NCBI GenBank assembly: GCA_018524725.1
Contig: JAEUWP010000418.1
Location: 1 to 64,000 of the forward strand
Direction of reading: 5' to 3'
Length of the DNA stretch: 64,000 bases
From: Podaxis mareebaensis
Taxonomy: Eukaryota > Basidiomycota > Agaricomycetes > Agaricales > Agaricaceae
The stretch's first letter is position 1. Each line of letters begins with the position of its first letter. The notes under the pieces were generated by a model that saw only the letters and a list, made by a program, of their open reading frames with translations, had not been told where the DNA came from and made no database searches. Shown piece by piece: positions 11,068 through 63,347 of this stretch. A program made the position numbers and the translations under genes.

Positions 11068-11769
11068 TCATTGCATTGACAGTTGTAGACGGAACATCCT
11101 ACTTGGTTTTGATACGACTTGGGAGGCCTGATCCGGTTGCCTCACTCGATGATTAGGTTGGACATCACTGAGGGGGAGACGCCGATCCTGAGGGCAGTCA
11201 TAAGCATAATGACCCGGAGCTCTGCGATTACATCTTTGACACATGAAGTTCGGGCAGTCCATGGCCCAGTGTCCAAAGCCATGGCATTGCAAACATTGGT
11301 CGTATTCAATAGTCGTGGTTGCACCATGGGCATCGAGTTGGACCGGATCGTAAACATAGGAGCTCGGACAATCTCTTGCCCAGTGTCCAAAGCCACCACA
11401 TTGGAAACACTGGTCGTATCCAATGGTCGTGGTTGCACCATAGGCATCAAGACGGATCGGATCGTAATCGTAGGAGCTTGGACAATCTCTCGCCCAGTGT
11501 CCAACGCCGCCACATCGAAAGCATTGGTCGTTGTAGATTTTCGTTGCGGTGCGGCGCATGTTGGGCTTTCTCAGGTCAAAGTGGTAAAAATTGTTAAAGT
11601 GATCGTTAATCCAGAATACTGTCATGCCCTTTGCATACCCACGAGTCCTCGTGTTGATGGCTAAGAATAGCCTGTTGAGCAGTAATAAGTGTGATTGCGT
11701 GTCGACTTGGGCCTCGACACAAATAAGCCGAAGCCGCTGCGCATGGGAATATGCGACCCCAAGCTTCAA
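11068..11769 (-). CDS. CCHC zinc-knuckle protein with internal repeats
   Basis: The ORF has four zinc knuckles: CFRCGGVGHWARDC, CFQCGGFGHWARDC, CLQCHGFGHWAMDC, and an expanded CQRCNRRAPGHYAYDC (CX2CX6HX4C). The first three are followed or preceded by a 38-residue (114 bp) repeated unit with the spacer YDP(I/V)(R/Q)LDA(Y/H)GATTTI. CCHC knuckles usually bind single-stranded RNA or DNA, as in CNBP/Gis2 and retroviral Gag. No reverse transcriptase or protease is seen nearby, so a Gag origin is unsupported. The first 80 residues look unlike the rest and the true start may be internal. The stop lies 41 bp before the kinase start, so the two may be one gene. Confidence 0.55.
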   Translation of the reverse strand: MKLGVAYSHAQRLRLICVEAQVDTQSHLLLLNRLFLAINTRTRGYAKGMTVFWINDHFNNFYHFDLRKPNMRRTATKIYNDQCFRCGGVGHWARDCPSSYDYDPIRLDAYGATTTIGYDQCFQCGGFGHWARDCPSSYVYDPVQLDAHGATTTIEYDQCLQCHGFGHWAMDCPNFMCQRCNRRAPGHYAYDCPQDRRLPLSDVQPNHRVRQPDQASQVVSKPSRMFRLQLSMQ

Positions 11770-12419
11770 GTCCCACGAGGAAGCATCTGGATTATTCTTT
11801 GGAATCTATTACACAATGGAGCGGTAGGTTTGATCTCTTGGACGCTATCTCTTCGTATTGGATATGGAGAGTGTTCCAACTCCAGGGTATAGCCTACTAT
11901 GGATGCTTCCAACCACTGACCTTCCGTAGCTACCCCCTCTTATTCGTCTCGATCTCAAAACATGAATATCCATCTTGTGTCTCAATAACTGGTACACCGG
12001 AGTATAGACTACGTAGCAAAGCGTCAGTTTTTTTCTATGCAATGCTCCCTCGTCTCACACAACATCAAAATTGAACAACGGGAGTGGTCATGTAAAAGCA
12101 AAGAAAAAAAAACGACCAAGAAACTTATGGAAGTGCTCGATGATAAGATGCGCTCCTTGGTATCACCTTCTTCGTATGCTTTCTTTTTGCCAACCCCTGA
12201 ACCCATTCTGCGGAAACATGACCAGCTACGTTCGACGCATGAACCCAGCAACGCACTCAGATCCAAAGGCGGATTTTTTCGCGCTTGCGGGAAAAGATGA
12301 AGTTGTGAAGTATTGGAGTGAGGCCAGTGTTAACCACCTCATTCATCCTTTCAGTGCACTTTGGCACAAACAAATCAGGAGGATGGCATCACGCACGGAA
12401 TGGGCTATGTACTAATTCG
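11770..12419. other. No gene recognised
   Basis: Short overlapping ORFs occur on both strands (up to 114 aa), but none has a recognisable motif or matching splice sites. A purine-rich A tract lies at about 12105. The stretch probably contains the 5' region of the CCHC gene. Confidence 0.4.
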
Positions 12420-22494: not shown

Positions 22495-25105
22495 GGCGAG
22501 AGGAGGAGAGATGTGAGAGGAAGGGATGGGTTCGAGTCGTAGTCACAAGTCCTCCTTATATAACACTCCGGGCGTTACTGGATCCGGGGTGTCCAAGCAC
22601 TGGTGATTTCGGAGTTGAGGAAGCAAATATGTGGGTGAATAGGGCACACAAAGGGTCAGAAGGGGTGTCCGATGATTCGAGTCGAGTAATCTGGCGAGGG
22701 AGATCTGTACGTCAGACTCACCAGGACAATGCCAATGCGTATATATACCAATCGGAGCCCATCTCCATCTGCATCGTCTTCTCTCTTCCAAATGATTTGA
22801 TCTAGGACAGGATGTTCCACCCGAGGGCTCCACAATGGTCATTGATATCCGTCTCCGTTCATACAAGTGCTGCTTACTGGTTCGGTGAGGCACGCGGGTT
22901 ATCGTAGGCTTCCGGAGGACGGCGGAACTTCTTAGCCTAAGGGATTGTAACGCATCAAATGGGCTTGCGCTCCAGAAAGGAATGTCCAGTGTCGCAGCGT
23001 CACTACGGCGAAGGCAAAAAGGGTTTTAGACTTGTAACTTGCTAGGCGACCACCGGAGTCAGAGATTGCAGTCACTAACCAGTGCATCAAGCACGCGCCG
23101 TCAGGGGTCCCTCGAGGACTTCACAAATCCGCAGTTAGAATATGGGCGGCAACACCAATTCCTTTCCACGGAACACAACGTTGACCGAGCTAGTTGCAAC
23201 TGTCCCCCAGTGAGGCCGAGTTCGCATTCCAGAAATCGCCACCCTGTGTTTAGCTGAGAAAGTATTCGACAATAATTATGGATCCATTTACCGCACGACA
23301 CGGCGTTCGGAAATCAACTGAACCCAAGAACCCGGAATTTAATTAAGTCAATCAAGGAGAACACAGCATCTCGACCGTTGAGTCCATGTTACCGACGAAA
23401 GAACACCCTACGCTGTGGTACAAGTCTCGAACATCCCACATTGAACATGTGGGAGTTGATGGGAAAGGGTAATGTTGATCTATTTCTTGGCCAAGGAGAC
23501 AGAGGTGGTTTTTCTATGCTCTTATGTAATAGTGATACCCTCTGATCTTTTGAATCTGTTCCTCCTTTCTCCCATTTGTGAATTGAACCCCCTCATTATA
23601 TTACGATCGCAACGAATCCATGGCGCACATCAAGTGCTGTATAAGGTCACACGGAGCGGGGAACTCGTTAGCCACGAAGCGCATTATTCGTAATTTGCCA
23701 TTTTCTTGCAACTTCCATTCAATGTCGAGATCTTCAGGCAAGAATGTTATTCACCTTCATCCAAGAGGCCCGCGTCTCAACTTTTTGCACGATCGGAGCT
23801 TAATCGAGCCGCGACTCAGTGTCAACTCCTCAGGGCAATGCGTCCTGGATTGATAAGGGCTATCGCCGGTGTTCTCTGTCAGGCGCAGAGTTGTGGTGGT
23901 TTGAAACCCACGAATTCATCAGAATCATCTAAGGTTGGCGGCCTGACCTGCGAAGCGGGTTGAGTTGCCTCCGATGGTAGACACCGCATGTAAGTCCCCG
24001 GAGGACCGCTCCTGAGGTCTGAAACCTGGCCTTGCTAGGTCCCCGAGCTGGACACTGACACGCGTAAGGTCACAAAAGGAATCGATTGTGTTCAAGTTGA
24101 CACGAAGCTTTTGGTGGCAGATAGAACCCCAACACATGGGGTCTGAGTTCCGTAAACTGAGCGAGCTCTTTTCAAGATTTATTCAATATAATTTCTAGCT
24201 TGATTGGATCAGGAAGTACAGATCAGCGCATGCGGCCACGCCGGCGGTAACAAAGGTTTTCCGAGGACACATACGTGTATACGATCGGGTCTAATTGTGG
24301 AATGGAGAAATCGCGTTGACATGGCGGAAACGAGCTATTGTAGGTCATAATAAGTAACATGTCCCTTGTATTTCGCTCCAGACGCCAGTGGATTTAGGCC
24401 GAGGGCGAACACGGTTTGATGGATTCGATGAACAGAACACCTTGATGATTACCCCAAAATTATGATCTCGGAACAAAAATGCTGGACGAAGGAGAGGCGG
24501 TCTAATCGAGAACTCCGTGAATCACCAAGAAATGAACCAATTCCCAGTAATTAGACCGCTTTAACCCGGATGGGGCAGAAGCAGTGGTGAGTCATAAAAA
24601 GATTGCATGGGATTAATTGTCCCGTTTCCACCTAACTCTAAGCGTTCGTCTTTCGTTAAATTGTCGCGCCCATTTTAAACATCCAGCGTGATATGATATT
24701 GCATAGTTGACTACCTGCGATCCTCTCGCTGTGCAACCCGGCCCCTCCTCGAGCATAACGCAAAAGCCAATCATCACAGCCTTCTTGGACTATGTCACCT
24801 TCCACATCTGATAGAAAGGAATTTGCGGACGGAGGCAAGGCAAAAGTTTCGGGTTGCGTTACGGAATTTGCGCGATGTTTAGCTTTCAATATACATCCAA
24901 GCGCCAGGGAAAGCGGATCACAGTGCCCGTGATACCATCTAAAGAGTGGGAGCGGTTTTGGGGGAACAAGGGAAACGCTACTGGAATTCAACTTCAATTA
25001 ATACGTGGTATTCGATCTGCTGATGGTTCTCGGGTGCTGGAAGTACTGTTATCAGTATTCTTGTCAAATATTAATAGCACCGGGAGATGACCTACGGGGC
25101 TGGTG
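22495..25105. other. Long gap without a recognised gene
   Basis: Scattered ORFs of 60-116 aa occur on both strands, none with a recognised domain, a signal peptide or neighbouring exons in frame. A CpG-rich TATA-like atatataccaatcgg sits at 22740, upstream of nothing evident. The stretch could hold a lncRNA or a decayed gene, but I see no support. Confidence 0.4.
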
Positions 25106-26533
25106 TTACTGGGTCAAACACTTCCGTCCATAGAGCCGGTAAAAGTCGGCGACGAGATATAGACTACCAGCGATGATGATTAGGCCTGCATCTCTCGTGC
25201 GATCCGCTGCCCAGTCAATTGCCGCAGACAACGATCTCCCCGGCTCTGCATCCCCGTTAGTGACCCATATATCAGCATCGGAAATCAGGCTCCTAGCGAC
25301 GTCAGCGAGATCCAACGGGGAAACTGGTTTGACCCATGGCATTCCCGCTGGTGGAGAGAAGTCCAACAACGCAACGTGCGTTCTGACACGATCTTTCAAT
25401 TGGTCGGAAGAATACGGCAATAGAATTGGGGATAGTGTTTGGACAGGTGTTTTAGGAGGTGAGTGGGATAGCGCAAGAATGTAGGTGAGGTCGATAACCG
25501 TGTCCGTAGAGAGCGAAATGATCCGATTAATATAATTTGCTAAGGTCTTGGCAGATGCAGGATTATGGGCGCCATCAACTAGAACGGGAAGGGATTTTGG
25601 CGACGAGATTGTATGGAATGAGAGACGGCCGGGCCATTTCACTTTACTAATCCCACGAGCGATGACAGATGATGTAAGCAGATTAGCAATATTTGCTCTG
25701 AGTGGGCTTCTGGAAGTGAGAAGAACAGAGATAACGGTGAGGGCAGTCGTTAGATTTTCGAGCTGGTGTTCGCCATGAAGAGGAAAGTCCACCGTGATTT
25801 CTTCCGAGGAAGGGGTAAACGAGAACGAGACCCGGTTCCCTGCAGGTGGATGGAAAGATGATGGACGGAAAGATAGAGGCGGTTGCGTTGCGTTGTCCAC
25901 CTTGCGAACGGTAAGGAGGGGGACCAATTTACTCTTCTTCTCCAAAAGGGCAGCCTTGACGGTGTCAACTACCTCCGGGTACTTCTGCGGGCCCAAGATG
26001 AACGGCCTTTCGGACCGAGCAATTCCAGCCTTTTCTGTTGCAATCGCAGAAACCGTGTTACCCAGGAAGGCTTGATGGTCAAGATCGACATTGGTAAGAG
26101 CAGAAACGAGGATAGCTTCATCTGGAATGATGTTCGTCGCGTCCAGTCTTCCTCCCATGCCCACCTCAACTACAGCGATATCAACTCCGACGCGTTCGAA
26201 GATTTGTAGAGCCGTCAGCGTGAGAAGCTCGAAATTGCTGAGGTTGGTGCCCTGCTCCGCGTCAACTCGTTCAACTTCGGCTCTTACTGAGTTCAGAAGC
26301 CCAGTCTCAACAGGATCACCGTTGACGACGATGCAATCATTGATGCTGACAAGATGGGGACTGTTGTATCTGCCGACGTTCAGGGGGGGTGAAGTTGCAC
26401 GAAGGATTGATGAGATAATTGCGGTGACGCTGCCCTTCCCATTGGTGCCTGCTACATGACATGTTGGCCGTGTGTATCTTGGAAGGTGGTGTATCGCGTT
26501 CCGGAGTCGGTCCAAACTGAGGTCGATTGACAT
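25106..26533 (-). CDS. FOL3: Dihydrofolate synthase (Mur ligase family)
   Basis: A single-exon gene of about 475 residues. The start is chosen at MSIDLSLDRLRNAIHHLP (26533), because the 34 residues upstream in the same frame look unrelated and homologues begin here. The ATP loop is HVAGTNGKGSVTA, followed by YNSPHLVSINDCI, VVEVGMGGRLDATNI, LTNVDLDHQAFLGNT with TEKAGIAR, PLHGEHQLENLTTAL, VKWPGRLSFH, VDGAHNPASA and a C-terminal GSLYLVADFYR. It joins glutamate to dihydropteroate to make dihydrofolate. The block AGMPWVKPVSPLDLAD resembles yeast Fol3 rather than the polyglutamylating enzyme Met7, supporting the FOL3 call. Confidence 0.9.
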   Translation of the reverse strand: MSIDLSLDRLRNAIHHLPRYTRPTCHVAGTNGKGSVTAIISSILRATSPPLNVGRYNSPHLVSINDCIVVNGDPVETGLLNSVRAEVERVDAEQGTNLSNFELLTLTALQIFERVGVDIAVVEVGMGGRLDATNIIPDEAILVSALTNVDLDHQAFLGNTVSAIATEKAGIARSERPFILGPQKYPEVVDTVKAALLEKKSKLVPLLTVRKVDNATQPPLSFRPSSFHPPAGNRVSFSFTPSSEEITVDFPLHGEHQLENLTTALTVISVLLTSRSPLRANIANLLTSSVIARGISKVKWPGRLSFHTISSPKSLPVLVDGAHNPASAKTLANYINRIISLSTDTVIDLTYILALSHSPPKTPVQTLSPILLPYSSDQLKDRVRTHVALLDFSPPAGMPWVKPVSPLDLADVARSLISDADIWVTNGDAEPGRSLSAAIDWAADRTRDAGLIIIAGSLYLVADFYRLYGRKCLTQ

Positions 26534-26941
26534 AACGACGAGAGGGCAGAACGTGATAAATGTCAAATTAATATGGCGATATGCCTGATTTAGGGCACGT
26601 GCTGTACAAATATTTGAATGTCTTCCCAATCCCATCTAAAAATTGACGAGTTGACAAAGCTTGAGGCCTAATAGCTTGTAGAACCGGATACGCCTCATTT
26701 CTGCTAGGAGTCTTCTAGCGAGTGGTAAGACCAGAGCTGGCGTACATCTGCCCCTTGGAGCGCCAGGACTCCTCCAACGGTGGTAGATGCACAGATTCGA
26801 GGCCCAGCAACTGTATGGTACGATGACGCATGTGACTACTCGGTTTTGATGCTTATAACGCCACTCCTTATGTTATAGCCGAAACGAGTAGTGAGATGTC
26901 TTGGCGCGAGAATTCTCCCCTCAACACCCTAAATCATCATA

Positions 26942-27090
26942 CACTGGGCCGGTGAGTCAACAAACCAGCTGTTTTATCGAGACTTTATCATAATTTATAT
27001 TCCAAATATGGTAATTGATACCATATATGGTAAGTAGTTCACAATAATGCCTTGATAAAACACTAGGCTTATTGACTCACCGGCCCAGTG
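26942..27090. mobile_element. MITE-like element, 149 bp, with CATA duplications
   Basis: The ends are perfect 19 bp inverted repeats: cactgggccggtgagtcaa at the left and its complement at 27072-27090. The element is flanked on both sides by the 4-base CATA, a probable target-site duplication. The inside is AT-rich with no ORF. A diverged relative lies at 36853-36991. I infer a non-autonomous DNA transposon; its superfamily is not assigned. Confidence 0.8.
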
Positions 27091-27658
27091 CATAACTATC
27101 TTAGAAAAGCTGACATTCTACACTTCGCCAAGTGACTTCTCAACTCTGAACGGTTCAACTCCAGGGCGACCACAAAGAACCGTGAAGCACACCACACGAT
27201 AAATGGCCGAATGCGCCATTGGCGCCCCGTATTACTATCATCAAACGCTATCACAGCTGTTGAGAACAAATCTCAATGCAAGTTCAGGGCAAAGCGACCG
27301 TGACTGAGCATGAGTTTAACTTTAGTTCAGCACCCACGAGTTCTTGTCGACTATTACTCAAATCCAGGACGAGAACAACGGGGAGGTGTGTCCGTATCCA
27401 ATTTTCACCGTGAAGTAGGAATAAGAACTAATGGGCCATGGTATCAAAGACAATTCGGAAAAGAAACAAACCAACAAATAATGAATCTTATTACCCACAT
27501 CCCCGTAACCCTATACATAATATGTCCGTACAAAGGGCATAGATTTTATCAAGCTCGAGGCCGTTACCAGCTTTCCGGCCTTACACCCTATTCAAGCCAC
27601 GCTTTCTCCATGGTCATACGCAACTAATCGTTCTCTAACTTAGTACAGGTGAACTTGT

Positions 27659-28476
27659 TCAATCAACGGTCTCCGTTCCGAGGTCCCGCTTCCAGGGTGG
27701 TGCGGCAGTACCATCTTCGGTGCGTTTCCAAGTTGGCGTCGTGGCATCCTTCCAGGGCGGCGGGGAAGCAGTCTCATCCGACTCACGCTTCCAACCAGGT
27801 GCACCGCTTTCCTCACGCCTCCAACCAGGCGCGCCGTTTTCCACTCGTCTCCATCCAGGCGCACCATTTTCCACTCGTCTCCATCCAGGCGCACCATTTT
27901 CTCCTCGCCTCCATCCAGGTGCACCGTTTTCTCCTCGCCTCCATCCGGGTGCACTGTTCTCTCCTCGCCTCCATCCGGGTGCACTGTTCTCTCCTCGCCT
28001 CCATCCAGGCGCACCGCTCTCTCCTCGTCTCCAACCTGGTGCACCGCTCTCTTCTCGCCTCCATCCAGGTGCACTGTTCTCTTCTCGCCTCCACCCAGGT
28101 GCACCACTCTCTCCTCGTCTCCAACCTGGTGCGCCGTCGGTGTCTCTCCTCCAACCCGGTGCACCATCAACACCTCGTTTCCAACCTGGCGCGCCGTCAG
28201 TGTCTCGCCTCCAGCCAGGTGCAGGACCGCTACTCTGTTTCTGCGTGGAGATGTAAATCAGACGTGTGGCAAAGCAGATATCCATGTAGGATAACTAACA
28301 CTTTCAGCTACTACATTCTCGAGTCCGGGGCCTCGACTCAGGAGATTTTGGTTCCCCTGCAAAGACGGTTAACAATATACAGAGCGAGTTGCTCCAGGAG
28401 GGCATACCACGGGTACAGCACTGGCAGTGACAGCAAGAGTTGAAGCAAGGAGGGCGAAAAAGGCTACGGAACGCAT
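27659..28476 (-). CDS. Secreted Kex2-processed repeat-peptide precursor (15 x APGW)
   Basis: Three exons fit: 28476-28408, 28356-28315 and 28240-27659, giving a 230-residue product. The start MRSVAFFALLASTLAVTASA is a textbook signal peptide, with cleavage expected before VPV. A 14-residue spacer leads into 15 tandem units of the pattern xxx(G/S)APGW followed by RR or KR. Examples are DTDGAPGW, GVDGAPGW, GESGAPGW, EENSAPGW, GENSAPGW, GENGAPGW and VENGAPGW. Two diverged units end in PTWKR and APPWKR before the tail DLGTETVD. Dibasic sites match Kex2 cleavage in the Golgi, with Kex1 trimming, so secreted octapeptides ending in Trp are predicted. No CAAX motif exists, unlike basidiomycete pheromones. 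Function is unknown. Confidence 0.75.
27796..28225. repeat. 30 bp tandem repeat encoding the APGW units
   Basis: About fourteen near-identical 30 bp units, with core ctccatccaggcgcacc, cover this stretch. The unit length is a multiple of three, so both strands stay open and long shadow ORFs arise (178 and 264 aa forward, 113 and 177 aa reverse). Differences between neighbouring units mostly keep the APGW and dibasic codons. Confidence 0.9.
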
Positions 28477-31400
28477 CTATGTTTAGGTGCGATGAATTCT
28501 AAGTAGCCACCTCTACGCGAGAGTGCTCATGTTATATACTCATCCAAGTTCGTTTGCTGAGTTAGGAGCACCCTCAGAGGATCAGGGTGCCTGGGATCAA
28601 GAACCATGCGTCACAGTTGCCTGGCAGAAGTCTGAAGTGGTGCAATATCCCCATGCGGGTCAAGCGATTCTTCTCCGTCCGAACTCAATCAAGTAGCGTG
28701 ATCTCCACAATTGTACATCCGATACTTGCCGATCAGGCTCGTTGGCTCGTAGCGACTCACAGGTTAGATGCGGACATCATACCCAAAGCCCTGGTGTGGG
28801 GGCATTTCAGAAAGTTGGTTTGCCCTTCACCTACAAAGCTGCGTCGCTATCTGCTCGTGATTTTTGTAGGCCCCTCGACCCATGATCATAGTTCTTTGTC
28901 AATTTGGCAACACTAGGGGGCATGTGTATCCGATAACGGACGGGTCAGCACATGGGCATATATACGTGGATCCCACCGATAAGAATATCAGGCCAACTCC
29001 GTCTAAGGTTGTGTGACTGGGGAGACTTGAGTTTGGATATGACCTCGGGGAGATGTCGTAGGATGTCATAAACTGGATCCACTTCGCTCAGGTTTCTCCG
29101 TGCTCTGAAAGGTAGGAAGTAGCATGACCGATTGTCGGATGATCTGCCGTTGCCTTTCGGTCCTAGCCCGGTCCTGTGGTTGCCTGGCGGTTTATTTCAA
29201 GCAATGCCGAGTGGTCTCAGGTGGTCTCATGCCTACGGGTCTCTGACAAAGGAGTCTGGCTTATGTTAGTTCCTTGGCACGTGGCTCTGGCGGATAATTT
29301 CAGCGGAAAACAATGCTTAGCTTTGATTCCATAAGTATGTTAATCTCCTCATTGCGAAATGGAGATTAGAAAGTACACAATCAGGGACAACTAATCAATC
29401 CTGCCAAGGCAGGCTCTGTTTCTAGCTCTGTTTGCCACATAGAATGATAACCCAAAGATGAACTGTCTAGGAGGTCAGTAAATGCTCGCCAAGAATATCT
29501 GAACTCTACGGTAAGCCTCGCCTACAGTGAAGAGTGTTCCATCAGGAGAATAGTTATGATACGCCACTCCCTTGCCTTCCTAATCATCTCCAGTAGGATT
29601 GGAGAACCCACCATAGACGGCTGTCTGGTACATTTGGTATGTGCTCACAAATCATCGTACCCCGGTAACCTGTCCTCGGCGTTGTGGCTATCGATTAAAA
29701 GAAGCTCCATGACATCGTTGTTCAATCAACCGTTGGTCCACAAATTAGCCGTCAGGGAAGGAGGACAAATTTGACAACCATGAAGCACTCCCGACGTGTA
29801 GAATGAGGCTTTTTGTTGCGACAGGCGCTGATTGCCATAGATGAATGTCTCGGTTGGAGAAGGTGGGATGCGTGCTGCTCAAGCAGAACTTATGCATCCC
29901 AGCGATGTCATCGTCCTTGATCCCGGCAAGATTGGAGAGAAAACCAGAAGGAACGGGCTGCCGGCCCTGGCATCCTTCATCCAGAGAGTGTGTGGTATCT
30001 TACACGATCTGGACGCATATCTCAGTCACCCCTGACCCAAGAAACGACTCGCGTATTTGAGGGACCTGGGGATTAACCAATCCAGTGCTCGTACCAGGAC
30101 CTATAGGTAGCCCGTGGTCAATGACTTATAAACGTCTATGACTGCCTTTGATTCCATGACAGCTCCGGGTCGGTCTTGATGGGAGGGCACGGGTGGGGCT
30201 TAATGAAAAGCTCATTCCGTGGACCAGCCCGTTTTGGGACGTGCTTGATTCACAATTCTGGTGTTAGATTAGATATACACTCGGACCCTCATCGACGGTC
30301 GTGAAGCCTAAAGCCACCGCCCCGTGATGAGTCCAATCTTCCAATAAGCGACTATTCGACAGCTCTTCTCGAAGAATAAACGTACTAGGTTCCTGATTAA
30401 TTAATATTAAGGACCTGACACCGCCGTAGTAAAGTAGAGTCTTTCCGATGCCAACTCTGATCGCTGATCTGAGAAAACTTCCGGGCGCCTCAGGAAAGCG
30501 CAGAGCATGCGGGAGTCTCTGTCCTAGCCCTGAGTGAGCTCACGCGGGCCTGAGAGCCCTTCCGGAAGGAGCACATAATCCTGAGCAGGTCCAGATACCC
30601 CAGAAAGTAGTCCCTCTCCGGCGAGAAAGGTCTGATGGGAATTGCGACGAAGTCAAAGCCAGTCAATCGGGTCTTGGGTCATTTTACGTATGTCATGGAG
30701 CCTTCCTAGAGGTTGTTTGCAACGAATTCTTGCCTTCTTGGCCCAATAAAAAGACAGCGAGATGCAAGAGGCGGTGAGCGTGGCCAGGCTGAGACAGCGC
30801 ATAGACACCGAATTGTCGTGAAGGATCAGGATCACCAACTCCGTCACAGCGAAGTCGGGGGATTCACTTGTTTCTGCAGATTTAAAACCTACCTTTTCAC
30901 AGCATTAAATATCCCATCAAAATAGAATGAGCTTGCGAGGTGGGTGTTATGTCTTTGAGAGCATTCACTCATGTGGGGACCCGATTTTTTTTCTGGAACA
31001 AAGTCGAAGTTTAGCTTTACAGAAACTGATAATCCTGTTGTCGCTGCCTCGACTTGGAAATGAAGTGTGCTCAACGCTGGGAGCAGGAAAAGGGCAGCCA
31101 AGTTCAAGTAATCAGGCGAGTGGAACAAATCCGAAGCGGCGGGGGCATGCATGTGTGATATGGCTGGCAACCTTTTGGTTGGGGTTAACGTTTCATTTGG
31201 GACAAAGTTACTTCTCTGCACACGGGCAAGGTGCTGAAGGCAATATTCACAGCGGGAGAATTGCTCATCTAATAGCTCCCTCGCCTTACTCTGGTAATTG
31301 CTAACGTGACCCCTTCGAAATGAAGGCCTTGCAGGGTCACGGAGCAGGCTCTTCACCAGGCCCTCCACAATCCAGTAATCACACACGTATGCTTTAGCGT

Positions 31401-32379
31401 GTCTCCTTCCTAACAGCCACATTAAGCATAGATTACTGCGGTACTTCCTTTACCTCCCAATCTAATAGGTGTGCGTAGAAACACATATCCATCAGGAGTG
31501 GATTACAATTCTCTCCATTCTCTGTTTCACCCAAAGACATTTGTTCCCGTTCCCGACAACAATCATCGATCACTATTCCAATCCATCATTAACATTTTTA
31601 ACCAACGTATTCCTTGGACACATCTCAAAAGATATGAAATGGATACGGGTATGACTCTAATTGCACAGAAATAGGCGGGAACGAATTAATAGAGTTGTGC
31701 TAAGCGAGATGAGCGTTACAGCAAGGGGGGGAGGGTAAGAGCAAGGGGTAGCTCAAGGCCAGCAGCGAGCAGGTACTCTAGTCGAGGTCCGGAGGAGAGA
31801 AAGGCAGTGAGAGGAACCGTTACCGCGCCGGCGACTTCTGTCGTAAGCTGTTTCCTCAGTTCACCAGTTGAGCGTCCAACTCGATTGGCGATATCATTGT
31901 TCAGCGCCAGAGGTCATCCATCAGCGCTTCATCAACGAAGATCTAGTGGTAATTTCAAACCGGAGATTCTCAATTGTAAGGCCGATGTCAGTTGAGAAAT
32001 GAGGTCACATTCGACGGTCTACAAAAATACAGTGGTGGTATCAATAGCGATAGATAGGTAAAAGTCGATGTATCAAGCATCGAGAAGAACGAGGTGAAAC
32101 ATAGGCTACATCAAAGGGGAATCAAATCAAGACGAACACGTATAATATGGCTACAGTGGGATGGTTGGTGTACCAAGGTGTAATTGTGCGATGGATGAAC
32201 ACAGCAGGAGAGACGAGATCAAGGAACGTAAAGATAGACGGAAACTGAAAGTGATTAAAGGGCGAGCGATTTCGCAACAGCGGCAAAGTATCAATATATG
32301 AGAAGAGAGGTGGGATCGAAGATAAACAAGATGAGTTTTGGATACAGGCAATATCAAGAAAGTGATCATCAGAGAGGAA
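28477..32379. other. Long gap without a recognised gene
   Basis: This contains the promoter of the peptide precursor (first few hundred bases), the 3' region of the HMG-box gene (about 32000-32379), and short ORFs. The largest is a 177 aa reverse ORF at 30889-31422, which has no motif, splice signals or signal peptide to support it. A near-palindrome, aggttcctgattaat against its partner ending aaggacct, lies at about 30389-30418. Confidence 0.4.
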
Positions 32380-34038
32380 TCACGCTTCGTTCTTGACGAA
32401 ATCACTCAAGTCGAACGCATTGTTGACGAATGAGAATTCCATCCCATTCGCGCAACCGACATTCTCGGGGGCATATCCAAGGTCGTCGTTCCCGAAACCA
32501 AGGTCGCCACCCCAACCCTCGGAAGCTCCAAGATCTTCGACGCCAGTGAACATTCCATTGGTAGGAGTTTGACCAGGGTGCATCGGTTGGGGAGCGAAGA
32601 CTGGTAGAGGGAGAGTTGCATCAGAAGGCTGGGGAGAGCCGGAATACGTCGATGACGTGTGGGAGGATGGGAGTGATGGGCTCTGTTGGAGAGAAGAGGA
32701 CAGCCAATGTCCCATATCAAGCTCCGGCATTTCGGCGGGGTTATTATTAGACTCGGTAGACGTGGGATCGTGTGGTGCGGTATTGTTGTACATACGCGAG
32801 AGAATGTCCTGTGGTGCCAGGGGTTCTAGTGGTCCAAGCCCAAGCTGGGTGTCATGTGGTTGCTCGTGGGGAGGTAGAGAAGTCATCAGCTCGTTGACGT
32901 TGAAGGGTGCGTTTTGTTGTTCAGGTTGAGATGACTGGAAGTTGAAGCTACTAAAGGTATTGAAGAGTGTGGGGTCTGGCTCCGGGAGCGGAGAGGTATC
33001 ATGTTGGAACATGTGCGGCTGGGTCTGCTGTGGGTTAGGCATAGTCCAGGAGCGGAAAAAGGCCGGCCCAGCGCTCGACGGACGGCGCTGTTGTCCTAAC
33101 ATCATCCGTTGTTGGCGTGAAATGGGAGATGCAGGCCGCGATGGCATGAAAAACGGTGCTGATGGAAGAGAAATATTGCCGTAAGGACTGTAGTAATCGT
33201 TTGGAAGAGGAACAGAGGAAGAGCGACGGTGAGTGTACAGAGGCGCGGGTTGCGTCACAGGCGTCTGAGAGCGTAGCCTGTCAAGGTTGCGAACTGCCTC
33301 TGCCAGTTCATCCCCTTTCTTTCCTTCCAGAAGGAGCTGAGCGACCTCTTCGCACCGGCGCTCGTCTTCGGGAGTTGGCAAAACTTTCTCCTTTTTCTTC
33401 TCCTTATTCTTGTTGTGAACAGGGCGGAAGCGATAATTGGGATACTTTGCCTTGTGCTCGGCCTTCGCGTGCTTGGCCTTGACCTCCCACAGACGTTTCT
33501 CCTCGAGTGGCAATGCCCTCCAGCAGTTGCCTGGATCCAGCGTTAGATATCCAACCATATTTTCGATAAATACTGAATCGCTTACCAATGATCTTCGATA
33601 GTGATCCATGATTGGTTTCGATGGAACCAGGAACATGCTTTTGACGGACAAAGTCGGCACGGAAGAGCATGAAGGCGTTGGGCGGGCGGGGGATGTAGCC
33701 AAGTGACCGACGCTTACCGGGCGGTGCACGTCGGCGGGCAGGTGAAGCCGTGGGAGCTTCTGAAGGAGGAAAGAGGGCGGAGGATGGCGAAGGCGGCAGA
33801 GCGGATTCTGGGCTATCCTCTGGCTCAACGTAGGTAACGGGAGTGACGTTCGGCGCAAACATGACCGGTTTCGGAGGAGGTGGGAGGCCAATACCATAGA
33901 CCCCAGGTTTGGCGGGGTTCAACCCGACTGTAAGGAATTAGTATAAGCCAAATAATCAAACAGTGATGAGTTGGCAGGCGTACCAAGCATGACGGACGAG
34001 CGTCTTCTACGGTTAGCAGCGATGCGGAAGGCGGGCAT
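32380..34038 (-). CDS. HMG-box transcription factor (MATA_HMG type)
   Basis: Starting at MPAFRIAANRRRRSSVML (34038), the gene has two introns, one after the first exon and one within the HMG box (SLSKIIG, then NCWRALP). The single HMG box runs YIPRPPNAFMLFRADFVR, QKHVPGSIETNHGSLSKIIG, WRALPLEEKRLWEVKAKHA and EHKAKYPNYRFRPVH, close to fungal MATA/pheromone-response type boxes that bend DNA. The remaining C-terminal part (about 350 residues) is rich in Pro, Ser and Gln and ends acidic (DLSDFVKNEA), as in an activation domain. It is a nuclear regulator. Similar boxes occur in Prf1- and Pcc1-like factors of mating and fruiting, but an exact orthologue is not assigned. Confidence 0.85.
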
Positions 34039-62960: not shown

Positions 62961-63347
62961 TCTGAAACAATATATCAGGGGATAGTTTCTTTCGGCAGCG
63001 CGACGGACAGCGTACCTTGAGGAGGGATTGTTGAGCTCGCCGTTAGCGTTGGCGGGAACGGACCACTTGACGAGAGATGGAGAGGGCGAGGGCGGCCTGC
63101 TGGGTGTCGGAACAAACACTCGCAAACTCGGAGAGTGTGGCAGAATCAAAGTTTGCATCTGTACAGTCATTTCAGCCACCGCTCGGCATCTTCCGGCCAC
63201 TGCAGAATCTCTCTCCCTGTCCGACCCTCTGATAGCGAAGTCGACAACTCAAGACCCTCCTTCCCACCTCAAGAAAACCCCCACAAATCGTCAGTTTTGT
63301 CGTCTAGATTGAGGTTATGACATACTGAACCTCTTCGCAGAGTCGTC
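62961..63347. promoter_or_regulatory. Shared divergent promoter of eS6 and uS15 genes
   Basis: A 387 bp spacer separates two oppositely transcribed ribosomal-protein genes, so both promoters lie here. A CT/GA-rich middle (gatggagagggcgaggg at about 63080) and a ctctctccctgtccgaccc tract (63210) are present. No perfect TATA box is seen. Coordinated expression of the pair is inferred. Confidence 0.6.

Follow-up and report, generated by a model that had tools for sequence, protein, structure and literature searches.

According to its main text, the mushroom study of KEX2-processed repeat proteins (KEPs) found this class to be widespread in basidiomycetes and assigned a function to none of the members examined (PMC9769878). 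The same text reports tryptophan-ended KEP peptides detected in Coprinopsis, Pleurotus and Lentinula. In Coprinopsis cinerea, KEP 490115 yielded QYKAPSW and QMRPPSW on expression in Pichia, and KEP 447393 yielded GPPAPSW, a peptide from its non-repetitive C-terminus that was found in Coprinopsis medium. Pleurotus KEP 1091723 gave rise to SGVAADW and Lentinula KEP 2599 to SGTGEASAADW (PMC9769878). The products from all three genera, including those made in Pichia, are described there as linear and little modified (PMC9769878). Judging by the main text of three reports (PMC6339444, PMC7329392, PMC9769878), both the KEP class and tryptophan-ended basidiomycete cores are already known.

The locus presented here lies in a stretch of 64,000 nucleotides, hereafter the window, from Podaxis mareebaensis (Agaricaceae; contig JAEUWP010000418.1, positions 1 to 64,000, called C59 below). 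It encodes a predicted KEP in which fifteen units end in APGW. Judging by titles and the opening lines of abstracts, no fungal repeat precursor with an APGW core was found in the literature searched, and APGW is absent from the main text of PMC9769878, PMC6339444 and PMC7329392; the supplementary KEP tables may list it. An earlier note on this DNA had stated that no named basidiomycete peptide is known to carry this core. The literature search did not contradict that statement, but unnamed relatives with an APGW core exist and, according to the main text of PMC9769878, tryptophan-ended basidiomycete KEP peptides have been published. As far as the searches show, the additions made here are the evidence from neighbouring genes and the spread of the core over at least three mushroom families.

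Gene model and precursor anatomy

The KEP gene occupies positions 28476-27659 of the minus strand, with its ATG at 28476 and the end of its stop codon at 27659, exactly as the earlier note had placed it (27659..28476). Since the signal peptide and the repeats sit in different frames, a single protein requires splicing. That note had described one precursor with signal peptide, spacer and repeats; the anatomy stands, while the required splicing went unmentioned. Under the chosen splice model, the predicted precursor has 235 amino acids and consists of a signal peptide, a spacer, 15 units of the form xxxxAPGW-[RK]R, a diverged tail and a final DLGTETVD. Exon 1 (28408..28476, minus strand) reads MRSVAFFALLASTLAVTASAVPV and comprises the putative signal peptide MRSVAFFALLASTLAVTASA followed by VPV; this signal peptide is clear by eye and depends on the splice model. 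Intron 1 (28357..28407, minus strand; 51 nt, GTATGC..TTTGCAG, with TTAAC before the acceptor) and intron 2 (28241..28299, minus strand; 59 nt, GTTAGT..CACGCAG) are both predicted from splice signals and are both of phase 0. Between them, exon 2 (28300..28356, minus strand) encodes the spacer GNQNLLSRGPGLENVVAES, which is similar to the annotated Leucocoprinus spacer ESLQSRNDVARAVDSVE. Since alternative GT-AG choices also preserve the frame, the exact spacer length is likewise a prediction.

Exon 3 (27659..28240, minus strand) begins with KQ and carries the repeat array, the diverged tail and the stop codon. The fifteen 30-nt units (27785..28234, minus strand) are followed by RR in 13 cases and by KR in two, in agreement with the earlier count, and Tandem Repeats Finder recovers the array with a period of 30, 11.7 copies and a score of 396. 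The first unit, SSGPAPGW, has no dibasic site ahead of it, so it is the other 14, each flanked by two dibasic sites, that would be released as octapeptides. Net side-chain charge is -1 or -2 in 14 of the 15 units and 0 in the remaining one. The tail (27686..27784, minus strand) reads ESDETASPPPWK-DATTPTWKR-TEDGTAAPPWKR, or ESDETASPPPWKDATTPTWKRTEDGTAAPPWKR as a whole. It had been described as two diverged units; two KR-ended blocks are indeed present, but they hold three further tryptophan-ended motifs (SPPPW-K, TPTW-KR and APPW-KR). The C-terminal DLGTETVD and the stop codon take up 27659..27685 (minus strand). Tryptophan stands immediately ahead of all 17 dibasic sites, and tyrosine is absent from the precursor. 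Pfam returned no match to the precursor at E<=0.001, and Rfam none at gathering scores in window positions 24000-34000.

Reading frame and constraint on the core

When the 15 units are compared in every pairing, the APG codons show 184 synonymous and 0 replacement differences, with W invariant, while the four codons before APGW show 78 synonymous and 250 replacement differences. Restricting the comparison to the 14 successive unit pairs gives 20:0 for APGW versus 10:23 for the preceding residues (Fisher p 2.2e-7, the units being not fully independent). Both halves of a unit have one duplication history, so this contrast is not explained by copying alone; the APGW core is under constraint. The APGW codon pattern, together with the relatives in other species, rules out a chance or simple repeat.

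The coding strand calls for separate evidence, since the codon statistic alone separates the two frames poorly, with synonymous:replacement counts of 337:276 in the minus frame versus 257:273 in the plus frame whose third positions face it. A 205-codon plus-strand frame spans the array. A plus-strand protein was nevertheless rejected, because no ATG lies ahead of the array in that frame and because proteins of other species match the minus frame better; P0007, a relative from Termitomyces, does so at E 8e-26 versus 0.002 for the plus frame. The presence of several open frames over the array, one of which nearly equals the minus frame in its codon statistic, is also what a noncoding or antisense tandem repeat left open by accident could look like. 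That no protein at all is encoded is nonetheless extremely improbable, given the minus-frame matches to relatives from other species, the presence of a putative signal peptide and splice signals, and the fact that an equivalent exon build can be modelled for another KEP of the genome.

Relatives with the APGW core

A single-sequence search covering 5.8 billion proteins gave one strong match (E 1e-15), a Favolaschia claudopus hypothetical protein that carries NGAPGWKR and DGAPGWKR units, and a weak second one (E 0.75). A profile was built from the window protein and these two matches, and 7997 candidates were scored with it out of a larger number. At least 24 proteins were found at E<=10 and at least 17 at E<=1e-3. 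Comparison with other proteins, which had been proposed as a check, has thereby turned up relatives with an APGW core in other mushrooms.

Among the matches listed, 15 of 24 have an assigned species, and 13 of those belong to the Agaricales: Favolaschia, four Mycena, three Termitomyces, Lyophyllum, Arthromyces, Volvariella, Leucocoprinus and Leucoagaricus. The two others listed are Earliella and the ascomycete Westerdykella, the latter a match (E 2.7e-3) with cores APDW and SPDW that is perhaps unrelated to the APGW family. Lineages were looked up for four relatives (Mycenaceae, Lyophyllaceae, Agaricaceae and Pluteaceae), and those of the other species-assigned relatives are presumed. Exact APGW precedes a dibasic site in 11 of the 13 Agaricales relatives among the matches listed, or in 8 of 10 when only those at E<=1e-3 are counted (Mycena galopus, M. 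crocata and Leucoagaricus drop out), proportions that overstate conservation since the profile favours APGW and tryptophan. Volvariella (PPAW, APPW) and Arthromyces (TPGW, PPGW, SPGW) are the relatives with other cores. These predicted proteins place the APGW core in at least three families of mushrooms.

The ends of the relatives bear on the form of the mature peptide. Eleven of the 24 listed terminate exactly at W (five in APGW, two in GVPGW and four in other motifs), a count that shares the profile bias and in which the two GVPGW proteins are near-identical Termitomyces sequences. The last unit of these 11 relatives needs no trimming, which suggests a mature peptide with a C-terminal tryptophan and a free carboxylate. 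The window precursor itself ends in DLGTETVD, not W. Basidiomycete lipopeptide mating pheromones have a C-terminal CaaX box, and the window precursor has none.

One relative, P0004, has AAGWKR/APGWKR repeats and a long acidic pro-region unlike the mushroom precursors. At a guess, it may be an animal neuropeptide precursor rather than a fungal protein.

Gene neighbourhood and orthology

The downstream neighbour of the KEP gene is a dihydrofolate synthetase / folylpolyglutamate synthase gene with a Mur ligase domain (25106..26533, minus strand), whose start at 26533 was placed by alignment to proteins P0036 and P0060. The KEP gene lies about 1.1 kb upstream of it on the same strand. The best named match of the synthetase is from Macrolepiota fuliginosa (73%). 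In other species, neighbourhood was read from consecutive locus numbers and matching contig sizes in the search listings, not from DNA. By locus number, KEP NP233_g7812 of Leucocoprinus birnbaumii adjoins synthetase NP233_g7811, both on the contig of size 25,728, and KEP C0995_009103 of Termitomyces sp. Mi166 adjoins synthetase C0995_009104, both on the contig of size 31,143. The KEP and synthetase matches fall on different contigs in Favolaschia, Mycena epipterygia, M. galopus, M. crocata, Lyophyllum shimeji and Arthromyces; the KEPs of those six species may have moved or may be other members of the family. Volvariella, Mycena venus, Leucoagaricus and two Termitomyces were left out of this comparison.

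A second link to Leucocoprinus comes from DNA ahead of the gene. In a search of the window, the stretch 28583..28654 (minus strand) matched the N-terminus of the L. birnbaumii KEP (67% over 24 aa, E 1.6e-6). Read from 28654 to 28583, it runs into stops in the window, while in L. birnbaumii it is annotated as part of the KEP. Since the annotated Leucocoprinus N-terminus matches DNA upstream of the window gene, it is probably mis-annotated, and the upstream DNA is conserved; the stretch is probably a promoter or 5' leader. The shared synthetase neighbour and the upstream match together indicate that the KEPs of the window, Leucocoprinus and Termitomyces Mi166 are probably orthologous.

Other features of the window include a MITE-like inverted repeat of 155 bp between the KEP and synthetase genes (26939-27093), with 75-nt arms that are 76% complementary and exact 19-nt ends. 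With <=1 mismatch, 21 copies of its end CACTGGGCCGGTGAGTCAA were counted genome-wide; pairs spanning 149 bp were seen on contigs C37, C59 and C360, and pairs spanning 512 bp on C199 (twice), C352 and C364. Approximately 4 kb upstream of the KEP gene, an HMG-box-like frame (32380-33918, minus strand) scores 25.3 bits, just below the Pfam cut-off of 25.4, and a frame overlapping it (33404-33937) gave no Pfam match. Positions 11068-11805 (minus strand) encode a zinc-knuckle protein of the CCHC type, in which a tandem repeat of 114 bp is found.

Other KEPs, processing enzymes and receptors in the genome

A genome-wide search for W-[KR]-R sites in spaced groups of three gave 32 matches versus 8 for the reversed pattern used as a control. 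Thirteen of the 32 fall in the window array, three on contig C150, two on C190 and 14 elsewhere, the last resembling other repeats by eye. With a second pattern, there were 8 matches versus 2 in the control (four in the array, three on C190 and one on C54). The genome has two more tryptophan-ended KEPs, one on C190 starting at 63060 and one on C150 starting at 122807 (L038, L039). The C190 KEP consists of PSPGWKR, TPPGWRR and EAE[PA]QRTPSWKR units and, like the window gene, fits a model of three exons separated by phase-0 introns; its EAEA spacers are of the Ste13 type, as in Coprinopsis KEP 490115. The C150 KEP has GNSDW repeats and one modelled intron. Two further candidates were set aside. 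A possible second copy with one GAPGWKR at C306:8465 lies in a frame of 72 codons that runs antisense to one of 196 codons and was taken as chance, and a weak match on C152 (E 0.036) is an unrelated-looking repeat frame.

Among processing enzymes, a Kex2-type P-domain (P_proprotein) matches on C109 (E 3.5e-15), with one in-frame stop taken as a read-through intron, and a DPPIV-type gene match has in-frame stops that are likewise taken as introns read through. UstYa matches number 10 on 4 contigs, 8 of them above the cut-off. The earlier note had suggested looking for a UstY-type oxidase gene elsewhere; matches do exist in the genome, but 0 of the 10 fall on the window's own contig, C59 (80,340 bases). 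These matches, along with a shared precursor layout, would suit a RiPP precursor of the dikaritin type, with UstYa-type oxidases cyclising its cores. The lack of a match on C59 leaves that reading unsupported, and known dikaritin cores contain tyrosine, which is missing from this precursor. In addition, the main text of PMC7329392 reports such a gene nearby in 103 of 1680 basidiomycete KEPs. A dikaritin-type product is thus very unlikely, the window gene having the Kex2 repeat layout of ustiloxin-type precursors without their tyrosine or a UstYa gene on the contig.

Receptor searches bear on mating. Twenty-three Ste3 exon matches were found, so receptor genes split by introns are detectable in this genome; a search for Ste2 gave no match, and 0 of 14 control genomes matched either. 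An alpha-factor-like mating pheromone would share the layout of ascomycete alpha-factor precursors, with repeats between Kex2 sites, but the window units lack the Ste13 signature: an X-A or X-P start occurs in 0 of the 14 units after a dibasic site. This absence fits the charged, tryptophan-ended octapeptides that had been expected earlier. The abundance of Ste3 exons, as expected for lipopeptide mating, also stands against an alpha-factor-like product, which is accordingly given very little credence. Contig C188 carries a cluster of Ste3-type receptor exons, probably a pheromone-receptor mating locus.

Another KEX2-processed candidate is a peptide of the wall or surface, resembling Ustilago Rep1. 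According to the main text of PMC6339444, Rep1 too is a KEX2-processed repeat protein, but its peptides are 37 aa long, compared with the acidic units of 8 aa seen here. A Rep1-like product appears exceedingly unlikely.

Proposed processing and role

The locus very probably encodes a KEX2-processed repeat protein that would be matured to linear acidic octapeptides. The secreted, Kex2-cut repeat precursor proposed in the earlier note is supported by the anatomy, the relatives and the Kex2-type P-domain match. On inspection of the sequence, the precursor would enter the ER through its signal peptide. In the Golgi, Kex2 would cut after each RR or KR; the sites are seen and a Kex2-type gene is present. 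A Kex1-type carboxypeptidase would then strip the basic residues to leave linear acidic octapeptides such as GENGAPGW, DTDGAPGW and EESGAPGW, each with a free tryptophan carboxylate. Most products would be expected to follow GEN[GS]APGW, [GE]ESGAPGW or VENGAPGW.

Once secreted, the peptides would meet a partner outside the cell. A fixed end combined with a variable start suggests that the partner reads APGW, and the variable acidic half may serve as a spacer or for tuning. The likeliest role, put forward tentatively, is that of an extracellular signal of the fungus itself. Ranked next, and possible at best, is that the same precursor and peptides act on other organisms such as bacteria, competing fungi or grazers. 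According to the main text of PMC9769878, none of six KEP knockouts made in Coprinopsis showed a phenotype in pure culture, and Vogt et al. deduce from this a function directed at the biotic environment; the many near-identical copies of the window array would also suit high output. Then again, the units are acidic or neutral, unlike cationic antimicrobial peptides, and synthetic Coprinopsis KEP peptides did not inhibit five bacterial strains according to that text (PMC9769878). Peptides engaged in an arms race would furthermore be expected to diverge, whereas at least three families of mushrooms have this core.

A signal of the fungus itself can be extended to a broader and distinctly speculative reading, held as a whole to be doubtful. 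In it, the APGW peptides would act as a peptide hormone of ancient origin in fungi that form mushrooms. An orthologue of the gene would have stood beside dihydrofolate synthetase since before the Agaricaceae and Lyophyllaceae split and would have moved or been duplicated to other sites in Mycenaceae. The free-acid xxxxAPGW peptides would be read by a putative receptor that may not belong to the mating receptors already known.

For follow-up, a core seen in at least three families has more to offer than cores that change quickly. It predicts one exact ending, APGW-COOH, gives probable orthologues and names a few peptides for synthesis. A receptor, if found, would represent a channel for peptide signals alongside lipopeptide mating.

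Comparison with known systems

The mollusc APGWamide precursor has APGW ahead of a dibasic site, with a glycine amidation donor between the two. APGW before a dibasic site is shared by the window precursor, but a glycine donor is found at 0 of its 17 sites, as had been claimed from the start. With no glycine between tryptophan and dibasic site, the window peptides would bear no amide, and the likeness to APGWamide is taken as convergence. The predicted APGW-core proteins of other mushrooms (Favolaschia R3P38DRAFT_3172437, Termitomyces C0995_009103, Leucocoprinus NP233_g7812, Mycena and others) have the same core and layout as the window precursor and differ from it in having fewer and more mixed cores. 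The tryptophan-ended KEPs of Agaricomycetes share with the window gene a signal peptide (putative in the window gene), repeats between dibasic sites and tryptophan ends. What sets the window gene apart from them, on sequence evidence, is an APGW core in 15 copies and an acidic N-terminal half that lacks a Ste13 dipeptide.
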